Source of the DNA: Thermoplasmata archaeon | GTDB taxonomy: Archaea > Thermoplasmatota > Thermoplasmata > Thermoplasmatales > Thermoplasmataceae | DNA length: 64,000 nt | Reading direction: 5' to 3' | Assembly (NCBI GenBank): GCA_015520045.1 | Contig: WAQW01000045.1 | Coordinates: forward strand, 1 to 64,000 | Shown: one piece after another, positions 43,533 through 48,544 of the stretch | Layout of the letters: the number at the start of each line of letters is the position of its first letter | Position numbering within the stretch: position 1 is the stretch's first letter | The notes under the pieces: model-generated | What the model saw: only the letters and a program-made list of their open reading frames with translations | What the model was told of the DNA's origin: nothing | The model's database searches: none | Translations under genes and position numbers: made by a program

Positions 43533-43610
43533 CTTATCTCCTCGTGAACAAACATTCGTTAAGAACCCTATTGTTTAGAAGTATTTATTGAATATAATCA
43601 TAGTGGGGTA

Positions 43611-43729
43611 ATGACAGCGACCCTCACTTCCCATCCCCTCGCGGAAGACAGTACGCATGAAGGGCACAGTGGGCTTAACCGTCGGGTTCGGGATGAGACC
43701 GGGTTTTTCCCCACTGTTATGGCCGTCAT
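43611..43729 (-). rRNA. rrf: 5S rRNA (isolated)
   Basis: Reverse complement ATGACGGCCATAACAGTGGGGAAAAACCCGGTCTCATCCCGAACCCGACGGTTAAGCCCACTGTGCC...GGGAAGTGAGGGTCGCTGTCAT; terminal helix pairs. Confidence 0.93.
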
Positions 43730-43790
43730 CAGCACAGTGATAAATACAGCCTATATAACAATTACGTCCTTTTAGTCCATATGCATTAGT

Positions 43791-43828
43791 CGTAGCGTCC
43801 CATATTTTGTGTATTTATAAAGGATGCC
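43791..43828 (-). repeat. 38-bp putative IS terminal inverted repeat (copy 2)
   Basis: cgtagcgtcccatattttgtgtatttataaaggatgcc is reverse complement of 113-150 with one mismatch. Confidence 0.75.
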
Positions 43829-44040
43829 AGAAATCATCAAACCCGGAAAGATAATCAAGAGACACCTTGATGGTATACTGGATTCCACAGGATAAGAATA
43901 AATTCTGCTGTTGTTGAAGGCCTCAACAACTATATCCGGAAACATTCAAACGATCATATGGCTTCAAATCTGAGAGATACAGAGACACAATCATCTATCT
44001 GGTTGCAGGAGGATTGAAGTTACCCACAATAAACCGATGA
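43824..44040 (+). pseudogene. Degenerate C-terminal transposase fragment (ISL3-like)
   Basis: Frames read PEIIKPGKIIKRHLDGILDSTG* / RINSAVVEGLNNYIRKHSND / TIIYLVAGGLKLPTINR*, needing frameshifts and a stop read-through. Confidence 0.6.
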
Positions 44041-44145
44041 GATCCATAAAATTCAATACACTATCCATTTTCAATAGCGGAAGTGTCCATTGAATCTTCA
44101 ATGTATAACACCAATCGAAACGGCAGATTCATCAGAAGTATCTAT

Positions 44146-44532
44146 TCACTGCCGTTTTTTGTTCTTGTTAAGAAGTATGTAAACTACGACAAGTAATGAA
44201 TCAGAGAAAAGTCCTCCGGCGATATAGGCATATCGGATTAATTTAGACGGCTCTATTGTAACACTCAGTAGATAATTCCCACCTGGAGTGTAAATCACCA
44301 CGTTTCCAGATAGATTGGTAATCACTAAACTCGCACTGTTGGAGACATTGTATGGACTTCCATTTATTTTTATTGATATGGATGATGTATTCTTACCTTC
44401 CAAAACAGTTAATGAAATGCTATTCCCATCATAGACGGCGTAACTGGATTTGCTTCCTGGAAGCTGATATGATGTTACTGGGGTGGAGAGAACACCGTGA
44501 ATAGACACAGCCAACAGAAGAGTGAAAACCAC
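44146..44532 (-). CDS. Small exported membrane-anchored protein (signal, ectodomain, C-terminal TM)
   Basis: MVFTLLLAVSIHGVLS signal; C-terminal YAYIAGGLFSDSLLVVVYILLNKNKKRQ. Confidence 0.7.
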   Translation of the reverse strand: MVFTLLLAVSIHGVLSTPVTSYQLPGSKSSYAVYDGNSISLTVLEGKNTSSISIKINGSPYNVSNSASLVITNLSGNVVIYTPGGNYLLSVTIEPSKLIRYAYIAGGLFSDSLLVVVYILLNKNKKRQ

Positions 44533-44549
44533 TGGAAGAATCCACGATC

Positions 44550-45209
44550 TCAGAGCAAATCCCTCCTATCTTGATGGTACAGGGAACTAATATATGTGAT
44601 AACTGCAAGAAGTGAGTATAACGGAAGCCAAAGGGTTAGTATTGATGTTTTGCCCAGTTGGTAAATTGCCAAACCAGAAAATGGAGAAATAGCAAAGATT
44701 GGAATATATGAATTCAAGTTATTCAATGAATAAGAAGATGCAAGAAGCGGTCCAAGTGATAAAGCGAAAGTCAACATTGTTGTTGTTTGAAAGTTTCTAA
44801 GAAATATAGAAAAAGCCAAACTGAGGAAAAGGTACATAACAGAATACAAAAATACCATAGCAACCAGGTTCAACGGTACTGTAATTCCGGAATTTTCGAG
44901 CGGAACAAAAGACAACGGAAGAATGATAAAAAAGCCACTTATACTAAAAAGAATTATTATTCTTTTGATAGTGATAGGTATTGACAAGAAAAAGAAAAAC
45001 TGATTATATTCATAAATCTGAGTGATCTTGCTCGCAATGTAGACTATTATAACTAAAGATATTAGGAGAGTGATACCGGTGAGAATTTCTATTCCTTCTC
45101 TGCTTGGAGATAGCAAGAATGAAGCTGTTATCGGGATTAAATATAAGAAAAGCAGTACGGGAGTTGATGACAGGTACTTTAAACTCCACCTGAAAATGTT
45201 CATATTCAT
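44550..45209 (-). CDS. ABC-2-like permease (about six TM)
   Basis: Strongly hydrophobic multi-TM protein overlapping the ABC ATPase gene by 4 nt. Confidence 0.75.
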   Translation of the reverse strand: MNMNIFRWSLKYLSSTPVLLFLYLIPITASFLLSPSREGIEILTGITLLISLVIIVYIASKITQIYEYNQFFFFLSIPITIKRIIILFSISGFFIILPLSFVPLENSGITVPLNLVAMVFLYSVMYLFLSLAFSIFLRNFQTTTMLTFALSLGPLLASSYSLNNLNSYIPIFAISPFSGLAIYQLGKTSILTLWLPLYSLLAVITYISSLYHQDRRDLL

Positions 45210-46021
45210 TCCTCCAAAATCACCTTTCTGAGCGATGCTGATAGCCCGATGAGTTCGTTTATCACGTTCTCTATACCATTATATATTACTATTTGACCAT
45301 TATTGAAGGCATAATCAACTCCTGCTCTGATCAGTATATGTTTAGACTCTTCTAAGTTGTGAGTGGTGAGGACGTATGCAAACCGTGGATCTTTACGTAA
45401 TCTAACTATTGAACTTTCACCGGGGCTCTTTTTTTTGATTATAATGACCTGATCGAAGTCTGGGAGGATGGGATCTTCCTCGTGAGTGGTCCATATCAAG
45501 TCTAACTTTGATCTTCTAACGAGTTCTACAAACCTAAATCTTTTACTGCGATCCAGGTAGGATAGGGGCTCGTCCAGAAGAAGCCCTCTCCTCTCCAAAG
45601 ATATACCTATGAGTATTTTCAAAATTTGAGTCTCACCTGAGGAAAGGTTAATGACCATTCTGTTGAGCAAATTACTTACTCCAAGGTGTTCAGCGTACTC
45701 ACTAATATGATTATCTGAATCATATGATGAGATATATTCTAAGACATCCCTAACCTTAAGCATTCCAGGGAAATTGCCGATAGAGGGAATGTAACTTATT
45801 TTGCTCCTAACTGTTTCGGGAGAAGTATCTGGATAAAAGCCATACACCCTAATCCTTCCTCTGTCTGCTCTCCTGAGACCGTAAATCATATCCAGTAACG
45901 TTGTTTTACCACTCCCATTCTTGCCCAGAATCAAAGTTTTTCCTTCCGGGATTTTCAATGATAAATTTTCAAAAATTTTAAGTGAACCATAATTTTTTGT
46001 AACACTATCGAAAGAAATCAT
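45206..46021 (-). CDS. ABC transporter ATP-binding protein
   Basis: LILGKNGSGKTTLLDMIYGL Walker A; LSSGETQ signature; RGLLLDEPLSYLD Walker B; WTTHEED H-loop. Confidence 0.93.
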   Translation of the reverse strand: MISFDSVTKNYGSLKIFENLSLKIPEGKTLILGKNGSGKTTLLDMIYGLRRADRGRIRVYGFYPDTSPETVRSKISYIPSIGNFPGMLKVRDVLEYISSYDSDNHISEYAEHLGVSNLLNRMVINLSSGETQILKILIGISLERRGLLLDEPLSYLDRSKRFRFVELVRRSKLDLIWTTHEEDPILPDFDQVIIIKKKSPGESSIVRLRKDPRFAYVLTTHNLEESKHILIRAGVDYAFNNGQIVIYNGIENVINELIGLSASLRKVILEE

Positions 46022-46037
46022 AGCAACATCAGCCCAG

Positions 46038-46973
46038 CTACCATAAATAAAGTGAATAAGTATACGGGAACACTAAAAATGAATATATGAGCATAAATAT
46101 AATAGGCAACAATAATTTCTGCTGAGGCTTCCATTTCCTCCTAACTCCGAGTTGGTAGGAGAGCCATAAAACTGGGATAATTGACGATGTTAGCAATCCG
46201 TAACCGACATAAACCCTTAAATTAGGGACAAATCCCACATTCGAACTAATCAGTTTATAAGTTGTAGTTACCACCATTTCGTATTCAGATGAGCCATTCA
46301 ATTTAGAAAGAGTGGCCAATAGTGAATTTGATCCACCGAGTAAAGCAAGTGTATCTGGATTTAGGGTCGGAATGGTATTCTTCAGGTAGTTAACCGTTCC
46401 ATAAAAAGTTCCTACAACACGCGTTGAATAAACCAATCTACCTCCGTTTAATGAACCAGTATAAATCGTCCCTCCAATTATTCCTGATACGTATGATGAG
46501 TTTACATTATATGGTACGGAAGTACTGAATTCGAGTGCCACTGAGTTAAAGAAACCATACAACTTACTATATGGGCTATCAAAATAAGCCAGAGACGAAC
46601 TGCTTTTTGTTAAATTGGAATTTAAAGGATCTACTGGATATTCTCTACTATAGACGAAAATAATATCCTTAAGTGCTGGACCAGATATGCCGTGATTTTT
46701 GTCTACTATGGAAATTTGCCCATCGTGCACGTATGCATTTAAAACAAACGTTTGGTTATAATTTATGGCAGGAGCACCAGAAACCGATGAATGGTTATTG
46801 AATCTTAACTTGTATATTGAGTTATTTACAGTGACTTTATATGTAACATAAGATATGTTATTCGCGAACGTGCTCGCGTTGGGCTTTTCTATTGATATGG
46901 ATATTGCCGGAATGGCGGATACCATCACAAAAACTATCAAAATAAATATAAATTTTAGAGTAGGTTTAAGCAT
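46038..46973 (-). CDS. Exported membrane protein (signal peptide, large ectodomain, C-terminal TMs)
   Basis: MLKPTLKFIFILIVFVMVSAIPAISIS signal; C-terminal VYVGYGLLTSSIIPVLWLSYQ and LLLPIIFMLIYSFLVFPYTYSLYLW. Confidence 0.75.
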   Translation of the reverse strand: MLKPTLKFIFILIVFVMVSAIPAISISIEKPNASTFANNISYVTYKVTVNNSIYKLRFNNHSSVSGAPAINYNQTFVLNAYVHDGQISIVDKNHGISGPALKDIIFVYSREYPVDPLNSNLTKSSSSLAYFDSPYSKLYGFFNSVALEFSTSVPYNVNSSYVSGIIGGTIYTGSLNGGRLVYSTRVVGTFYGTVNYLKNTIPTLNPDTLALLGGSNSLLATLSKLNGSSEYEMVVTTTYKLISSNVGFVPNLRVYVGYGLLTSSIIPVLWLSYQLGVRRKWKPQQKLLLPIIFMLIYSFLVFPYTYSLYLW

Positions 46974-46985
46974 TAATTCCCCCCC

Positions 46986-47717
46986 TCAATCGAATTCAAC
47001 CGGAAAGTCAATAGAAAAGGTTAGAGGAATGCTTGCCATGGATCCATCCCAAGTATAACTACCCGATATTTTAGTTTCGCTTGGGTCTCCATATAACCAC
47101 AGATAATAACTAGCAGTGTATGTCTGAACACCCCATCCAACAGAAAACGCTTCGTGGAACATATCTACTTGTGAAGTAATTTCGTAACTGGAACCGGGGT
47201 TCATCACAACAGTGTATTGATTAACTAAAACAGATGGACTTGAATCACCAGTATATCCCCAAAGGTTGACGGTCTTATCGATTGATTCCCCATTGTACGA
47301 GGTTACGTAGTAGTTGGTCTGCGTTGGCCAAACATTATACGCGTAACTGTATTTATATGAATCAGATTGTTGGAAAAGAACAATGCCAAAAACGACTTTG
47401 ATGGTTGGGGCGTACATAACCTCCCTATTCCAATTGAATGGTCCGTAGTATCCATAACCACTCCCCCCTCCAATAGGCGCGTCTGGAGCTGCTGGAGTCG
47501 ATATCTCTGGTATAGGGTTAAAACGAATGTCATAACACCAATTGATAACAAAAAACCTCCTGTCGTAAGCAAAGTGAACATATATATTGAAGTCATTGTT
47601 TGGGCCATACTTTCTAACAACGCGCCTTTCTCTTACAGACTTTTTACAACTTTTGCTTTCTTCCACCATTCTCTTGCGTAACGCTCCTAGCATAGCTAAA
47701 TAAAAATGTTCATCCAC
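46986..47717 (-). CDS. Candidate secreted Tyr/Ser/Gly-rich protein; 5' frame uncertain (GTG start in this frame)
   Basis: C-terminal ~170 aa natural beta-rich composition (GGGSGYGYYGPFNWNREV...); an alternative frame (47303-47620) has a signal-peptide-like MTSIYMFTLLTTGGFLLSIGVMTFVLTL over the same 5' region. Confidence 0.6.
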   Translation of the reverse strand: MDEHFYLAMLGALRKRMVEESKSCKKSVRERRVVRKYGPNNDFNIYVHFAYDRRFFVINWCYDIRFNPIPEISTPAAPDAPIGGGSGYGYYGPFNWNREVMYAPTIKVVFGIVLFQQSDSYKYSYAYNVWPTQTNYYVTSYNGESIDKTVNLWGYTGDSSPSVLVNQYTVVMNPGSSYEITSQVDMFHEAFSVGWGVQTYTASYYLWLYGDPSETKISGSYTWDGSMASIPLTFSIDFPVEFD

Positions 47718-47742: not shown

Positions 47743-47882
47743 ATTGTCAATTTTTAGTTGATGAAAAAGGCAAAATTTAGACCAAGAAAATCTTGAGATT
47801 CTGGTTAGGCCACACTTAGGAGTTGCCGCGGGATCATGATCGTTTCCATAAATCCTGTGGAATCAACTAATATTTGACAATC
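47743..47882. mobile_element. MITE-like element 1 (about 140 bp) with ~20-bp TIRs
   Basis: Left attgtcaatttttagttgat; right aatcaactaatatttgacaat (inverted copy). Confidence 0.55.
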
Positions 47883-47903
47883 TCGAAATATGGAAAAAAT
47901 AGA

Positions 47904-48096
47904 TACTGTCAAATTTTCGTTGATAGCCGAGATACCAGCAGGATGTTTTCAGCAGGCCTTCACGCATCCTGAATATATTCTTAAGCGATTCGGATCTGAC
48001 GGGAAAGTGTTGCTTTACAACACCGCTGTTATTGTTGATATCCAGAGCAACAGAATTGGAGAGTATCCAATTTCAACTAAAAATTGACAGTCTCAA
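47904..48096. mobile_element. MITE-like element 2 (about 190 bp) with related TIRs
   Basis: Left actgtcaaattttcgttga; right tcaactaaaaattgacagt (inverted copy); same TIR family as element 1. Confidence 0.55.
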
Positions 48097-48471: not shown

Positions 48472-48544
48472 TGGGCCCGACCGGATTTGAACCGGTGACC
48501 TCCGCCGTGTGAAGGCGGTGTCATAGCCACTAGACTACGGGCCC
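48472..48544 (-). tRNA. tRNA-Val(CAC)
   Basis: GGGCCCGTAGTCTAGTGGCTATGACACCGCCTTCACACGGCGGAGGTCACCGGTTCAAATCCGGTCGGGCCCA; loop TTCACAC. Confidence 0.93.

Follow-up and report, generated by a model that had tools for sequence, protein, structure and literature searches.

A block of five genes in a draft archaeal genome is a real, conserved and patchily distributed cassette, which was previously unclassified. The window, the whole stretch of 64,000 nucleotides that was analyzed, contains this cassette at positions 44146-47717 as five closely spaced ORFs on the minus strand, in agreement with the original prediction, and a synteny search detected the same five-gene order in another six genomes of this family of acid-loving archaea (7/77 in total). 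The order is the same everywhere: a putative exported substrate (gene 1), a membrane protein with an ectodomain (gene 2), an ABC ATPase (gene 3), a permease (gene 4) and a small membrane protein (gene 5). Judging from profile searches, four of the five genes represent unclassified protein families and only the ATPase fits a known family. The exported proteins of genes 1, 2 and 5 had been listed as lacking a recognized family, and neither these nor gene 4 gave a trustworthy match in Pfam, NCBIfam or PDB.

The cassette is located between the 5S rRNA gene (43609-43730, minus strand) and the tRNA-Val(CAC) gene (48472-48544, minus strand), as had been read from the letters. The AT-richness noted at the same time was found also in a GC scan, which gave 37.9% GC for the cassette vs 46.3% for the window outside it. 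Repeat relics had been predicted on both sides, and both flanks have multicopy matches in the own 1.14-Mb draft genome: 24 for the relic on the left (43791..44050), and 30 for fragments of the right flank, which are scattered over the genome. The right flank contains a MITE/IS-like element of 345 bp (47745..48089) with perfect 17-bp terminal inverted repeats, TGTCAATTTTTAGTTGA, which has the appearance of a MITE-like relic. An 18-nt stretch of the left flank is present as an inverted copy in the right flank.

The proposed identity of gene 3 (45206..46021, minus strand, 271 aa) as an ABC ATPase was borne out by a match to PF00005 (ABC_tran; E 2.8e-21) and by the Walker A (GxNGxGKTT), SSGE signature and DEPL motifs kept in 7/7 copies, with an invariant H-loop histidine. 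The best PDB matches of the ATPase profile include lipid-exporting ABCA proteins, a similarity generic to ABC proteins. Gene 4 (44550..45209, minus strand, 219 aa) overlaps gene 3 by the predicted 4 nt (ATGA, 45206-45209) and appears to be a short ABC-2-like permease, with about six hydrophobic segments in the hydropathy profile and without a peptidase domain. It is below all Pfam thresholds, a profile search of PDB gave nothing convincing, and alignment with ABC2_membrane_2 proteins gave a weak in-register hhalign match at the coupling-helix motif (P 0.0047, probability 7.5%). PHROGs and PADLOC scans of the cassette gave nothing beyond the generic ATPase match, and scattered sub-cut-off family matches of the other cassette genes (Pfam, NCBIfam, PHROGs and PADLOC) were treated as chance.

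Genes 2 and 5 encode putative membrane-anchored proteins. For gene 2 (46038..46973, minus strand, 311 aa), the predicted succession of signal, ectodomain and C-terminal TM segment stands, with a correction of the helix count: model and hydropathy give an N-terminal signal/TM helix, an ectodomain of ~220 aa and about two C-terminal TM helices. The window protein is 32% identical to the copy in G028. Its ectodomain is beta-rich in the predicted model (mean pLDDT 63.5), for which Foldseek gave no match at E<=0.001 and TM-scores of 0.3 or less; weak matches to beta-barrel and lipid-binding folds were set aside as non-significant. Profile searches of PDB with genes 2 and 5 gave nothing convincing. 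Gene 5 (44146..44553, minus strand) is a small protein whose hydropathy and alignment support the N-terminal signal and C-terminal TM helix originally described, with an ectodomain between them, and no lipobox Cys is present in the alignment. The gene 5 profile matches the own genome at 44149-44559, and the start codon is probably CTG at 44553, not GTG at 44532. With this start, genes 4 and 5 share 4 nt (CTGA) at the gene 4 stop, and the equivalent overlaps are GTGA in G028 and ATGA in G083.

Gene 1 (46986..47717, minus strand) is an ORF of 243 aa, assigned by a profile of five homologues and by a position and C-terminus like theirs. The homologues start with a basic leader of ~30-40 aa that has NED(F/S)K at its end. 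A TM helix with Kyte-Doolittle values of 1.95-2.76 comes next, and the mature domain after it is rich in four residues, Tyr, Ser, Gly and Thr; within the cassette such a long conserved leader before the TM helix is found in gene 1 alone. The window gene was the best of 1142 window ORFs against this profile (E 3.3e-4, residues 115-241), being recognized through its mature domain only. Its own frame encodes the leader, with NNDF at the position of the NED(F/S)K motif, and the mature domain rich in the same four residues, and the expected TM helix is absent. The view that this ORF as annotated is a secreted protein was rejected, since the helix is out of frame: in its own frame, the single ORF has no signal peptide, TM helix or hydrophobic segment (none above 1.6). 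Frame translations place the helix, SIYMFTLLTTGGFLLSIGVMTFVL, in a shifted frame at approximately 47520..47605 (minus strand; Kyte-Doolittle 1.82), where it directly follows NNDF and begins at a TATATA tract, and the downstream linker is back in the first frame. This location of the helix in another frame implies two compensating indels, one before it near TATATA and one after it. In gene 1 of G083, the leader and the TM helix likewise do not share a frame, the shift being located at a (GA)n tract, GAGAGAGAGAGA (L018 4935-5050). This GA dinucleotide tract is a possible phase-variable repeat. The frame breaks in gene 1 may represent decay, switching or assembly error. Searches of gene 1 against Pfam, NCBIfam, PHROGs and PDB profiles gave no match to a toxin or bacteriocin family, with nothing convincing in PDB, and AlphaFold gave no usable model (pLDDT 38).

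Cassette carriers besides the window genome are G028, G083, G065, G071, G072 and G070, the last with only a remnant of gene 1; four of these genomes are Thermoplasmata MAGs in GTDB with SPAdes-style contig names. A gene 2 search gave its first relative in G028, and a profile search then added the other five. According to profile searches, genes 2 and 5 occur in an identical set of seven among the 77 genomes of the family, and gene 1 homologues occur in cassettes only, apart from one weak match of 34 residues. At E<=1e-25, the window ATPase matches only itself and the G028 cassette copy among 61 genomes. Searches of 40 further genomes of the order did not detect the cassette, a sample of 400 genomes of the class gave none outside the family, and gene 2 had no match in viral contigs, plasmids and phages. 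Several matches with E values of 1e-3 to 1e-2 were discarded as short stretches of larger reading frames (gene 2 in G017 and G074, gene 5 in G074 and G089, and gene 1 in contig C94 of G065). Absence of co-occurrence, or homology to a known transporter accessory or S-layer family, had been named beforehand as findings that would count against the original prediction, and neither was found.

The chromosomal sites of the copies are unrelated to each other. The G028 cassette adjoins kdp genes, that of G083 lies between two tRNA-Ser genes, that of G065 ends ~260 bp short of a 23S rRNA gene (L019 4654-5515), and in G070 and G071 a thymidylate kinase-like gene follows the cassette site. Stable RNA genes are often near cassettes, with the 23S gene in G065, and 5S and tRNA genes beside other copies. 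An IS110-like transposase relic, identified by sequence reading, is located just upstream of the G083 cassette (L018 4389-4691). When an empty site was sought in relatives, PheT was not beside the window's TrpRS, 5S or tRNA-Val in those fetched.

Values of dN/dS for comparable pairs are 0.09-0.27, which shows purifying selection, while many distant pairs are saturated. Gene 1 had been considered as the fastest evolving member of the cassette, and this was rejected because between most copies it has diverged no faster than genes 4 and 5; there is thus no arms-race signal. In G070, the leader of gene 1 is kept, the rest is deleted within the TM segment and gene 2 is split (L022 4805-4950), whereas genes 3-5 are intact with dN/dS of 0.11-0.27 vs G071; this is a single case on a contig with coverage of ~2.9x. 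In gene 1 of G072, conserved residues have been replaced (GWEY to GREN; L021 5938-6606), and this is possibly a decaying copy; in this genome the permease ORF runs into Ns, as does the start of gene 2.

The function that we favor, at a likelihood slightly below even, is that the cassette produces an exported, probably antagonistic protein via Sec, while its transporter and small membrane protein give self-protection. A mobile or horizontally acquired cassette would thus make and tolerate one exported protein. Gene 1 would be made with a basic cytosolic leader (NED(F/S)K) and a TM/signal helix and would leave via Sec, and its beta-rich Tyr/Ser/Gly/Thr domain of ~150-190 aa would be displayed or released. 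The ABC transporter of genes 3-4, together with the two ectodomain proteins anchored in the membrane (genes 2 and 5), would handle gene 1 there. This handling would most likely be expulsion or neutralization for self-protection, as in ABC-type bacteriocin immunity, and gene 2 would help in maturation or release. ABC transporters can act in bacteriocin immunity, as one paper describes (PMC10598978), and their part in it, with LanI and LanEF(G), is treated in another (PMC8538875); the comparison is made as an analogy and does not assign the cassette to these systems.

Patchy distribution, AT-richness and repeat flanks are consistent with this reading, as are the gene order at unrelated sites, the co-occurrence, the low dN/dS values and the leader motif and TM helix conserved in gene 1 homologues. 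Retention of genes 3-5 after the loss of gene 1 in G070 is as expected of immunity functions, and the broken leader/TM frame in the window and G083 is as expected for a costly product. The lack of toxin or bacteriocin homology of gene 1, of an arms-race signal and of a usable model argues in the opposite direction, G070 is one low-coverage case with a split in gene 2 as well, and assembly errors may account for the frame breaks in gene 1. The original prediction had read the layout as a substrate, a dedicated ABC exporter and membrane-anchored partners, resembling an antimicrobial locus with self-protection. The anatomy fits this reading, which stays plausible, and G070 leans toward it. However, Sec-type signals in genes 1, 2 and 5 mean that export does not require the ABC transporter, gene 1 of the window is frame-disrupted, and the antimicrobial function is one that we infer. 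A more specific proposal, possible but doubtful as a whole, is a protein antibiotic system of a new type in acidophilic archaea that lack a wall. In it, a Sec-exported beta protein would be guarded by a dedicated ABC transporter and a small membrane immunity protein; the system would spread between chromosomal sites, and frame changes in short repeats where the leader meets the TM helix would switch or inactivate it.

The same genes could serve cell-surface assembly or maturation, the transporter and genes 2 and 5 helping to place or extract gene 1. Gene 1 would then have no antagonistic role and would resemble an adhesin or belong to the surface coat of these wall-less archaea. We regard this as the main alternative but as rather unlikely, even though the membrane anchoring of genes 2 and 5, the beta-rich model of gene 2, purifying selection where measurable, the absence of toxin homology and a Tyr/Ser/Gly/Thr-rich composition of gene 1 like that of many surface proteins would all suit it. 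A cassette present in only 7/77 family genomes is dispensable, G070 has lost gene 1 but retains genes 3-5, and no S-layer or adhesin family was matched. That G070 copy is also unexpected if gene 1 is exported by the ABC transporter itself, since an exporter would then have been kept after the loss of its substrate. Direct export would make the NED(F/S)K leader the recognition signal and genes 2 and 5 accessory subunits, and is consistent with the tight co-occurrence of the genes and with a conserved leader of ~30-40 aa before the TM in gene 1 only; the short six-TM ABC-2-like permease without a peptidase domain and the Sec-type helix of gene 1 make it improbable. Still less probable is ABC efflux of a small molecule or lipid with sensory ectodomain partners and gene 1 as a binding protein, toward which the generic similarity of the ATPase to lipid-exporting ABCA proteins points; gene 1 resembles no solute-binding family, and the fold search with gene 2 gave nothing significant.

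In the papers searched, no bacteriocin-like system of Thermoplasmatales is described, and for one member, whose genome and secretome were studied, antiSMASH and BACTIBASE are reported to give none (PMC10354927). A conserved, patchy cassette with four unclassified families is presented as a testable candidate, and G070, where the transporter is kept and gene 1 is gone, points to candidate genes for self-protection.

Among known systems, NosFY/CcmA-type ABC-2 exporters of Thermoplasmatales have an ATPase of the same superfamily and a permease with weak similarity at the coupling-helix motif; they differ in that the cassette permease is below Pfam thresholds and is linked to three exported proteins of unclassified families. 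Operons of the lactococcin 972 type begin with a Cys-poor substrate with a Sec signal, followed by a membrane protein with an ectodomain and then an ABC ATPase, and the cassette shares this layout. However, gene 1 of the window and of G028 has no match to the lactococcin 972 substrate models at E<=1, the ATPase scores 64.3 bits against the TIGR03608 cut-off of 254.85, the 7-TM partner protein is not matched and gene 2 matches no family. In the cassette, the six-TM permease is a separate protein and one more small signal-peptide/TM protein is present, and wall-less archaea are not expected to contain lipid II, the target of lactococcin 972. LanFE(G)/LanI systems are similar in that a secreted peptide is accompanied by an ABC transporter and by a small ectodomain protein anchored in the membrane, but the cassette has one permease gene and no lantibiotic enzymes, gene 5 lacks the lipobox Cys of the lipoprotein LanI, and gene 1 is a large protein and not a modified peptide. 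The SulA/SulB/SulC locus of sulfolobicins is not known to contain an ABC transporter. Sulfolobicins are protein toxins found in thermoacidophilic archaea, where they occur patchily and with a broken copy (PMC3718332), and the cassette resembles them, by description, in its patchy distribution and its broken copy.
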